Of a DNA stretch of 64,000 nt, positions 24,387 through 26,286 are shown piece by piece. The notes under the pieces were generated by a model. It did not search any database. It worked only from the letters and a program-made list of their open reading frames with translations, and was not told the origin of the DNA. Numbering within the stretch: position 1 is the stretch's first letter; every line of letters starts with the position of its first letter. The stretch comes from Paramicrobacterium chengjingii (GTDB taxonomy: Bacteria; Actinomycetota; Actinomycetes; Actinomycetales; Microbacteriaceae), in NCBI RefSeq assembly GCF_011751765.2, contig NZ_CP061169.1, positions 496,001 through 560,000 on the forward strand, given 5' to 3'. The position numbers and the translations under genes are program-made.

Positions 24387-24430
24387 CGAAGCGTGATGCC
24401 CTCAGCTTCGTCAAGCGACGAGCGCGCGGC

Positions 24431-25114
24431 TTAGAACAGGTCGGGTGACGGCGTCGATGCGTGACGGATCGAGACGTCTGCGTGACGGTCGAATCGGTAG
24501 CCGGCGCCCCGCACCGTGCGCACGATGTCTTCGTAGCGGCCGAGCTTCGAGCGCAGACGGCGCACATGAACGTCGATCGTACGCTCGTTGGGAACGTCAC
24601 CATCGTTAGCCGACCACAGAGCGTTGATGAGTTCCGTGCGCTCGACGGTGCGGCCTTCGCGCAGCACAAGGTACTGCAGCAGCTCGAACTCCTTGTAGGT
24701 GAGCGTCGCCGTCGCGTTGTCGAGCACGACGCGCTTGCGAGAGATGTCGATGACGACTCCCGCGTGTGCGCGATCGAGTTCTTCGTCTTCTTCGACGGGC
24801 TCTGCACTGTTGCGGGCGACGGCAGTCGGCTCCTGCAGTGCGAGTCGCACGACGTCGACGTCGCGGCCGCCGACTCCGGCTGGGGCCAGGGCGACTGCGG
24901 CATATGACTGCGCGGCGGGAGCAAGCTCCCCGATGGACTTCTTGACGGCCTCGACGATGGCGCCGAGAGAGGTGCCGGCAGCCCGAGCCGCTTCTTCATC
25001 GAGTCCGACGTAGAGGGCGAAACCGCGAGGCTCGGGAGAAGCGGGCACGGCGCGGAGTGCACGTGTGCGGTTCTCGGTGGGGGCGGCCTGCGGAAAAGCG
25101 GTTGCGAGTGACAT
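24431..25114 (-). CDS. Orphan winged-helix transcriptional regulator without a receiver domain
   Basis: The 227-residue protein starts at ATG 25114, seven bases after AAGGA. Residues about 130-215 form an OmpR-type winged helix (LTYKEFELLQYLVLREGRTVERTELINALW, then NERTIDVHVRRLRSKLG and VRGAGYRF). In place of a receiver domain the N-terminal 120 residues contain a different segment, FALYVGLDEEAARAAGTSLGAIVEAVKKSIGELAP, and an acidic linker. No phospho-acceptor Asp pattern is seen and no kinase is adjacent, since the NarL-type pair next door is complete. A cysteine-rich leader ORF and hairpins precede it. The signal it senses is unknown. Confidence 0.82.
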   Translation of the reverse strand: MSLATAFPQAAPTENRTRALRAVPASPEPRGFALYVGLDEEAARAAGTSLGAIVEAVKKSIGELAPAAQSYAAVALAPAGVGGRDVDVVRLALQEPTAVARNSAEPVEEDEELDRAHAGVVIDISRKRVVLDNATATLTYKEFELLQYLVLREGRTVERTELINALWSANDGDVPNERTIDVHVRRLRSKLGRYEDIVRTVRGAGYRFDRHADVSIRHASTPSPDLF

Positions 25115-25204
25115 GAAAGATCCTTTGCGATGATGAGTATGACCCACCCCAGGCCACACCGACGCTCGTCGGGGCAGGGGTGAGAAGTGTGTGGTGTCGA
25201 GGTG

Positions 25205-25225
25205 GCGGATGCTGACAGCATCCGC
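25205..25225 (-). promoter_or_regulatory. Hairpin in the leader between the cysteine-rich ORF and the winged-helix gene
   Basis: GCGGATGCTG (25205-25214) and CAGCATCCGC (25216-25225) are perfect inverted arms around one base, so the real loop will be a little larger. A second, smaller arm pair, CCGACG/CGTCGG, lies closer to the start codon. They could form a transcription attenuator, although no T-tract follows. Confidence 0.45.
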
Positions 25226-25251
25226 GGTGCGTGCGGCGTGAGGTCAGGGTG

Positions 25252-25356
25252 TTAGCGACACATTCGACAACACATGACAGCGGCGACGCCGGTCATCATC
25301 GACCCGGCATTCCCAGGGAACTCGACAGAGCTCAGGGGGCGCGTGCTGTGTGTCAT
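25252..25356 (-). CDS. Leaderless 34-residue leader peptide ending in CCRMCR
   Basis: ATG 25356 opens a 34-codon frame on the minus strand that ends VMCCRMCR-stop, with all three Cys as TGT. A perfect -35 TTGACA, an 18-base spacer, TTAGAT and seven bases place the transcription start on this ATG. The winged-helix gene begins 137 bases after its stop. Cysteine-rich leaderless upstream ORFs that act as cysteine-responsive attenuators are known from mycobacteria and other actinobacteria; this architecture matches, but those usually precede sulfur genes. Confidence 0.6.
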   Translation of the reverse strand: MTHSTRPLSSVEFPGNAGSMMTGVAAVMCCRMCR

Positions 25357-25363
25357 GACATCA

Positions 25364-25393
25364 ATCTAAGTCGCACGCGAATCGGTGTGTCAA
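25364..25393 (-). promoter_or_regulatory. Consensus promoter for the cysteine-rich leader ORF
   Basis: On the minus strand TTGACA (25393-25388), an 18-base spacer and TTAGAT (25369-25364) are followed by seven bases and the ATG at 25356. It is the best-matching promoter in the window. Confidence 0.75.
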
Positions 25394-25551
25394 ATCATTG
25401 CAGTAAATGACGTTTGATTGCGTAATAATCATGTTTCTTCGGTGATATCGCGATAACAACGCACGATCTTCTATGCTGACAGGGGACGGATGCTGTCGCT
25501 CACAGAAATTTCCACCTGACGGCGCGAACCGCAGGGCTGCCCGGCCATCGC
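25394..25551. other. AT-rich non-coding stretch
   Basis: No gene is seen. It contains a palindrome TATCGCGATA (25446-25455) and runs of AT-rich sequence upstream of the leader promoter, so it may hold regulator sites for that promoter. Confidence 0.5.
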
Positions 25552-25573
25552 TGCCGCCGTGTGGGCGGCGGCA
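25552..25573 (-). terminator. Hairpin directly after the DUF1345 gene
   Basis: TGCCGCCG (25552-25559) pairs with CGGCGGCA (25566-25573) around TGTGGG, starting two bases after the stop codon of the minus-strand gene. It would end the upp-DUF1345 transcript. Confidence 0.6.
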
Positions 25574-25575
25574 CG

Positions 25576-26286
25576 CTAGGCGGTCAGGCTGCCGAACAGA
25601 AGCGAGACCATCATGGCCACGATGACCGTGTTGAAGACGAAGGCGAACACGACGTTGAGGCGCAGAACCTGCCACGCTTTGCGTGTGTGGATGCGAGCTG
25701 ACGACGTTGCGGCCATCGTTGAGACGAGAATCGCGAGTGTGAGGTAGTCGCTGAATCGCGCGGGGTCCTCCACCTCGAGGCTGATGTGGTTCTCTGTGCC
25801 GTCGGCGCTGGCGACGAGCCGAAGGTACTGCAGGGCGAACGAGTACACCATGAGGGCCCACGAGCTTGCGACGCTGAGCATGCCGAGGCCGATGTACAGC
25901 CACGAACTGTGGATGACAGGGGTTTGCGCGACGACGACGGTGAGGAAAACGGCGAAGACTGCTCCCGTGAGAGTCCAGCTCGATGCGCCGCCGTATCCGA
26001 TCATCGGAGCCCACCATTTCTGCAGCGAGCGTGTCTCTCGCCGTGCCGAAGCCTCAAGCGTGCGTGGCCCTCGTCGCTCGTAGCTGACGTGCGTCCACGC
26101 CACGTAGATGATCACGAATGCTGGCCACATGCAGAGGTAGAAAGTGATCAGGAGCGTCTTGATGTCGGTGCTCGCTGCAGTTCCATCGGGCAGCAGCATC
26201 CCTGCAGTCGCACCCGCGCCGATGGCGGCAGAGACTAATGACGCGAGGTTCGCGCGTGCGGTGTCGCTGAGATAACGAGCGGCCAT
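25576..26286 (-). CDS. DUF1345 family membrane protein
   Basis: The 236-residue protein starts at ATG 26286. It has about five to six hydrophobic segments, and its C-terminal region (ARFSDYLTLAILVSTMAATSSARIHT, then NVVFAFVFNTVIVAMMVSLLFG) follows the DUF1345 pattern. The function is unknown. It lies 46 bases downstream of upp on the same strand and may be cotranscribed with it. Confidence 0.75.
   Translation of the reverse strand: MAARYLSDTARANLASLVSAAIGAGATAGMLLPDGTAASTDIKTLLITFYLCMWPAFVIIYVAWTHVSYERRGPRTLEASARRETRSLQKWWAPMIGYGGASSWTLTGAVFAVFLTVVVAQTPVIHSSWLYIGLGMLSVASSWALMVYSFALQYLRLVASADGTENHISLEVEDPARFSDYLTLAILVSTMAATSSARIHTRKAWQVLRLNVVFAFVFNTVIVAMMVSLLFGSLTA

Follow-up and report, generated by a model that had tools for sequence, protein, structure and literature searches.

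A conserved, putatively leaderless ORF ending in cysteine codons lies ahead of a nearly sulfur-free winged-helix regulator in Microbacteriaceae

In the window, the 64,000-nucleotide stretch of Paramicrobacterium chengjingii DNA analysed here, a short ORF ending in cysteine codons lies ahead of a gene for a winged-helix regulator, and this observation, made in a first-pass annotation, is confirmed as real. Comparison with relatives establishes the ORF, its promoter geometry, the codon-level conservation of its tail and a regulator that is nearly free of sulfur, the last of these being the surprising part of the system. On the same comparison the leader is most likely responsive to cysteine, or to sulfur amino acids more widely, and would serve a regulator that is itself unstudied.

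Layout of the locus

All features described here lie on the minus strand. The leader ORF (25252..25356) is of the leaderless type and has 34 codons, MTHSTRPLSSVEFPGNAGSMMTGVAAVMCCRMCR plus a stop; translation of 25356-25252 bears out the C-terminal end VMCCRMCR given in the first-pass annotation. The end that is kept in relatives, TGT TGT CGA ATG TGT (Cys-Cys-Arg-Met-Cys), occupies 25258..25272. Further upstream in the ORF is a run of Met codons, CGATGATGA (25293..25301), which is complementary to 25128-25136.

The promoter had been called perfect, and part of that description stands. Its -35 box TTGACA (25388..25393) matches at 6/6 positions and the spacer is 18 nt when the -10 region (25363..25369) is read as TTAGAT, or 19 nt when it is read as TAGATT, in either case 6-7 nt before the ATG. 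However, TTAGAT (25369-25364) matches TATAAT at only 3/6 positions, making it a poor -10, and a stricter promoter scan of 24400-26000 gave no site. Seven nucleotides follow TTAGAT before the leader ATG at 25356. The geometry fits the earlier proposal that this ATG sits at the expected transcription start, and the spacing recurs in relatives (see below). Directly upstream of the promoter is an element, GTCATTTACTGCAATGA (25395..25411), identical in all four Paramicrobacterium genomes compared.

The leader stop and the regulator ATG are separated by 137 nt. Folding predicts a hairpin formed by GCGGATGCT and AGCATCCGC (25205..25225) and a second hairpin between the leader stop and the regulator (25143..25184), and both a single-sequence fold and a consensus of four genomes predict that the segment TCGACACCACA (25190..25200) pairs with the Cys codons. 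Elsewhere in the genome lies a second copy, at 96% identity, of the 26-27 nt around the GGATGCTGTCAGCATCC hairpin (25199-25225, and likewise at L002). Directly before the Shine-Dalgarno-like AAAGGA (25121..25126) of the regulator gene, which encodes 227 residues (24431..25114), stands TCATCATCG (25128..25136), complementary to the run of Met codons.

Conservation of the leader and of the RNA behind it

We drew 150 Microbacteriaceae genomes, all of which contained a match to the winged-helix protein and 147 a close orthologue; three (G015, G107 and G144, with best E values of 1.1e-7, 8.0e-19 and 9.0e-17) had no close orthologue and were left out. Up to about 1 kb was read at each of the 147 loci (30 + 117), less at contig ends, and as loci were chosen by their regulator orthologue, the downstream gene is by construction the winged-helix one. 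Of the 147 genomes, 136 have a leader ahead of it, 115 being recognised by a strict CCRMC-like rule, under which a few starts are probably wrong (for example in G061, G104 and G117), and 21 by eye under a looser rule, with variants such as ...MCMCMCR, ...CACRRMCCSN and ...RRMCA. The 11 genomes without a counted leader include one cut by a contig end (G124) and three (G012, G027 and G094) with Cys-rich candidates that we left uncounted. At 80 named loci of the family, whose species overlap with the 147, a leader was found within 500 nt in 74, and on a longer look in four more, all Clavibacter, with the single-Cys tail MSCRMSA. This gives 78 of 80, and one of the two misses has just 147 nt of upstream sequence.

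The promoter is conserved together with the ORF. A -35 box matching at 5/6 positions or better lies upstream of 119 of the 136 leaders, compared with 4.1% of random windows; the other 17 have no good -35 box. In 112 leaders the best -35 box begins 36-37 nt before the ATG, and in 105 a gap of 6-7 nt separates the end of the best -10 candidate from that ATG. Such a conserved spacing between promoter and ATG is what a leaderless transcript would show.

At least one Cys is found in the last eight residues of all 136 leaders, at least two in 125 and at least three in 96, counts that are partly circular as Cys or RMC near the end helped to recognise leaders. Within this limit the check proposed in the first-pass annotation, that the terminal Cys be conserved in relatives, came out in its favour. 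A single terminal Cys is seen in some relatives, for example ...RRMCA and ...SRMCR. The contrast between synonymous and non-synonymous differences is less circular than the counts. Among 766 equal-length leader pairs from 100 genomes, with at most 25% of positions differing and the pairs not being independent, the CCRMC tail codons showed 695 synonymous and 129 non-synonymous differences, as against 2,200 and 7,297 in the remaining leader codons. In-frame deletions and one mid-leader expansion leave the CRMC tail in place (G076, G084, G111 and G130). In the leader of G130 (L188) both the start and the CCRMCA tail are normal, and the part between them contains MMPV(L/R) five times, in tandem and in frame. 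On these alignments, selection acts on the leader tail and has kept its amino acids and some of its bases too.

The bases concerned are seen in the codon choice. Counting back from the stop, codon four is CGA in 124 of the 136 leaders, one other leader having a different Arg codon (CGC) and the rest no Arg, and the Arg codon before ATG is CGA in 131 of 134 cases; among the Arg codons of 80 regulator genes CGA makes up 53 of 1,788. The conservation of CGA may reflect either slow reading of this codon or a role in pairing. TGT outnumbers TGC in the leaders (274 vs 125), although their third positions are 75% G or C. Of the 4,467 residues in all leaders together, 399 are Cys and 615 internal Met, and Cys accounts for 23% of the last 12 residues vs 0.6% of the rest.

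Other tails are found in some small-genome members of the family, among them MCMCMCMCR, CACRRMCCSN and MCCSMML. Leader tails recorded at three such loci are MCMCMCMCR, MCMCMRTCL and MMMCCSMML (loci L255 and L258 of G013 and G095, and L259 of G081). In the genome of the window the word CCRMC occurs once, at this leader. It was found in 99 of the 150 family genomes, in some a second time elsewhere; second words with CGA lie away from the regulator at, for example, G040:C8:91232, G145:C1:1847802 and G061:C118:3822.

Outside Microbacteriaceae, a C(C)(R)RM word stands upstream of the gene in 12 of 18 loci of the neighbouring family, assigned to Micrococcaceae by names, and each of these words contains CGA. 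The ORFs that carry them are small and in most cases probably start at GTG. Ahead of most of the GTG leaders (L278, L280, L281, L285 and L289-L292) the word GTTAC is repeated at intervals of about 20 bp, which may mark a site for the regulator. In a further family, f9, a related regulator is closely preceded at two of four loci by an ATG polycysteine leader, with the endings CRCACCCQN and VCSRACCCR, the other two loci being doubtful. No leader was found in families f7 (0/6 loci) and f12 (0/4 loci).

We then considered the RNA between leader and regulator. Eight of the 136 loci had no assigned regulator start, leaving 128, and spacer-length limits reduced these to 127 for shuffle tests and 125 for the folding test. 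The first-pass annotation had placed hairpins after the leader stop, in the manner of an attenuator. Two are indeed predicted, but the attenuator role is not borne out. No intrinsic-terminator-like site was listed in 24400-26000 of the window, and therefore the two predicted hairpins are not evident terminators; a scan of relatives' spacers for perfect stems with a T run gave 0 of 128. Likewise, masking a ribosome footprint along the leader in 125 genomes did not consistently free the ribosome-binding site of the regulator gene.

Complementarity between leader and spacer was weakly above shuffles, with a mean z of -0.34 at best, and generic duplex enrichment was for this weakness dropped as evidence for a mechanism. 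Two short motifs are clearer, both being lineage-specific and their counts inflated by relatedness. CATCATC, complementary to the run of Met codons, is present in 51 of 127 spacers (3.6% in shuffles), and TTCGAC, complementary to a section of the tail, in 36 of 127 (8.7% in shuffles). They often lie near the Shine-Dalgarno sequence, and 46 of 137 regulator genes have CATCATC in the 40 nt ahead of their start, vs 5 of 67 other genes. The words CGGATGC and GCATCCG are also enriched in relatives' spacers. RNAalifold, run per clade, returned plausible helices, which we set aside as support given alignments of only 4 to 28 sequences and very variable spacers. A search of Rfam gave no match with an E value under 1, and those it gave scored well short of the gathering thresholds.

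Sulfur content and possible targets of the regulator

The only Pfam match in the regulator is the OmpR-type DNA-binding domain Trans_reg_C, whose best solved match is GlnR (8hml, 8hig) at about 45% identity. These matches agree with the earlier view that the target of the leader is a transcription factor. Pfam detected no receiver domain, and of 40 NCBIfam matches the 25 that were listed all fall within about residues 82-214. Two models gave no receiver fold for the N-terminal part, where their confidence is low to moderate, and for this reason we claim no fold for it. Close homologues carry generic names (winged-helix regulator, transcriptional regulator or hypothetical protein), the closest named ones being from Paramicrobacterium.

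The regulator of the window contains no Cys, and its only Met is the start residue. The same holds with few exceptions for its relatives, in counts that are not independent as the proteins are related. Across the 28,893 residues of its best 120 homologues (68-100% identity, the window protein among them) there is a single Cys and a single internal Met. The regulators at the 80 named loci, counted from the first matched residue, add up to 16,640 residues with no Cys and three Met, 77 of them having neither. As a control we took OmpR-family paralogues from four genomes, using 30 loci of 47 matches and the last 225 residues of each frame; one locus (L369) proved to be the regulator itself and was removed. 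The remaining 29 add up to 6,525 residues, of which 24 are Cys and 123 are Met, and none is free of both. For reference, 8 of 583 nearby ORFs lack Cys and internal Met, and four of these eight are the regulator itself. An alternative count from the most upstream start, by which 33 of 62 had neither Cys nor Met, was set aside, as such starts run into non-coding DNA.

Against a strict reading of this depletion, 20 of the 21 orthologues with the lowest scores have Cys at ordinary frequency (12 in 4,002 residues), but Met is rare in them too (5, a single protein contributing four), and 10 of the 20 have neither. The best 120 Micrococcaceae homologues, whose 33,267 residues include 18 Cys and 109 internal Met, are still poorer than the paralogues. 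Regulators low in Cys and Met were also seen in other families of the order (homologues P0002-P0241 surveyed). In f9 there are 0 Cys and 0 Met in 969 residues, in f7 1 Cys and 6 Met in 1,478, and in f12 1 Cys and 8 Met in 2,063, these three groups together comprising 18 distant proteins with starts assigned by script. Low-sulfur regulator and leader hence do not always co-occur in the families compared, f7 and f12 being sulfur-poor with no leader found.

What the regulator controls was approached through domains, neighbours and operators. PF01507 was not found in the one Paramicrobacterium genome searched for it, that of the window, and the sulfite/nitrite reductase domain PF01077 is absent from four of four Paramicrobacterium genomes (G000, G148, G085 and G001). 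Sulfate assimilation therefore seems, by domain content, to be absent in Paramicrobacterium and is an unlikely target there. A search for Cys leaders before PF01507 and PF01077 loci, meant as a positive control, gave nothing convincing and one weak candidate (L313). By eye, no sulfur gene was recognised among neighbouring genes in 22 clusters from 71 loci.

In one clade a perfect palindrome, GTGCAAGAAACTTGCAC, overlaps the -10 region of the leader promoter. Allowing up to two mismatches, it was found exact and solely at the leader in five of eight genomes searched (G006, G021, G048, G066 and G130; L320-L322, L324 and L325); G039 has a two-mismatch copy at the leader, and G111 and G118 have none. 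The element GTCATTTACTGCAATGA is likewise exact solely at the leader, and its copies with two or three mismatches in four genomes number 16 against 10 for the control, not far above it. As an operator search for a regulon this was given up, both elements being exact at the leader alone with no further targets. Promoter elements confined in this way to the leader suggest autoregulation or a private input.

Proposed mechanism, alternatives and known systems

We think it probable that the leaderless leader senses charged Cys-tRNA, possibly Met as well, and sets expression of the regulator in cis. We infer that the transcript starts at the leader ATG, and the stall, the sign of the response, cysteine as its signal and the regulon belong to the same proposal. 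As it is translated, the ORF would gauge the supply of charged Cys-tRNA. When cysteine is short the first ribosome would halt at UGU UGU CGA AUG UGY beside the stop codon, and the stalled ribosome would change the fold of the mRNA or the position of ribosomes on it such that the regulator is made, in a step that may be either translational or transcriptional. The regulator, needing no Cys and, once its start Met is removed, no Met, could be made while both are scarce and would then presumably steer the acquisition or economy of sulfur amino acids. A leader rich in Cys and Met codons together with a protein containing almost neither fits induction by shortage of sulfur amino acids, and the nearly sulfur-free regulator adds independent support for such limitation as the signal. 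A more tentative extension, which we rate a little below an even chance, is that the pair is a dedicated emergency switch for sulfur amino acids, in which a leader that spends Cys and Met controls a near-sulfur-free master regulator of sulfur scavenging that could be made once both have run out, even where sulfate assimilation is lacking.

Four other explanations were weighed against the sensing of charged Cys-tRNA. The strongest, though unlikely, is that the leader is a general sensor of translation stress akin to that of whiB7/wblC, with any slowing of ribosomes, by antibiotics, by other amino acids or at the rare CGA codon, raising the regulator and cysteine not being the specific signal. 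Here too the target is a transcription factor, as with whiB7/wblC, the rare codon is itself conserved (131/134 in leaders vs 53/1,788 in regulator genes) and some tails keep RMC alone. Yet such a sensor would not call for the concentration of Cys in the last 12 residues (23% vs 0.6% elsewhere in the leader), for the polycysteine or Met-Cys tails of other lineages or for a regulator that avoids Cys and Met, and our scans of the window region and of relatives' spacers found no intrinsic terminator of the kind described for whiB7/wblC. Avoidance of Cys and Met could alternatively mean that the regulator must work under oxidising conditions, with a Cys-rich nascent end or falling Cys pools signalling thiol oxidation. 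A sulfur-free regulator would resist oxidation, but because the Cys codons adjoin the stop the ribosome would hide the new residues, and the conserved CGA and Met codon run would be left unexplained; on these arguments we rate a redox sensor slightly lower again.

The conservation of bases raises a different question, whether the reading frame is incidental to an RNA or DNA element such as an operator or a pairing strand. TGTTGTCGAATGTGY is kept down to wobble positions (274 TGT, 125 TGC; CGA at 124 of 125 Arg), and spacers contain ATTCGAC, complementary to TGTTGTCGAATGTGY, as well as CATCATC, complementary to the Met run. Against this, 695 of 824 differences in the tail are synonymous, deletions preserve both frame and tail, and polycysteine tails of other sequence occur elsewhere, which makes an incidental frame improbable. 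Short ORFs are common, so that one without function might arise by chance; occurrence in 136 of 147 genomes with near-constant promoter geometry leaves almost no room for this.

If sensing of charged Cys-tRNA is correct, a whole regulon rather than one operon would stand under a cysteine-sensing leader, Microbacteriaceae and Micrococcaceae would gain a candidate sulfur regulator, and the regulator would be a clear case of protein composition fitted to the starvation it serves, in a sulfur-poor family that extends over several families of the order.

Among the papers searched, none described the leader or the regulator. The first-pass annotation had likened the locus to the cysteine attenuators of actinobacteria; the terminal Cys codons and the conserved promoter geometry, which fits a leaderless start, uphold that likeness, but an attenuator role of the hairpins is not borne out by our scans and the target is a transcription factor. 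In mycobacteria, polycysteine leaderless short ORFs reportedly attenuate Cys-metabolic operons (Canestrari et al., 2020). The leader described here shares with them a conserved, here putatively leaderless, short ORF upstream of a separate gene and a cluster of Cys codons near its end (Cys-Cys-Arg-Met-Cys in the window). It differs in its CCRMC tail with conserved Met and CGA, its 137-nt spacer and its target, which is not a Cys-metabolic operon but an uncharacterised, nearly sulfur-free transcription factor. Cys-rich leaderless uORFs of mycobacteria were proposed as attenuators by Shell et al. (PMC4633059).

The ilvB1 leader of M. tuberculosis is a further actinobacterial case in which an amino-acid-coding uORF governs the gene behind it, but as described (PMC13236596) it has branched-chain codons, a terminator/anti-terminator and a biosynthetic target, all different from the locus here. 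For the regulator itself the nearest known protein is GlnR, an orphan OmpR-type regulator with a closely similar DNA-binding domain, from which it differs in having no Pfam receiver, a different short N-terminal part and almost no sulfur. The whiB7/wblC system is described (PMC11550727) as having a Rho-independent terminator and as responding to antibiotics and to starvation for amino acids, whereas our scans found no terminator at this locus, whose leader tail abounds in Cys codons. The two have in common a uORF acting in cis, or placed to do so, ahead of an actinobacterial transcription factor gene, an arrangement that is not new in itself and for which whiB7/wblC is a precedent.
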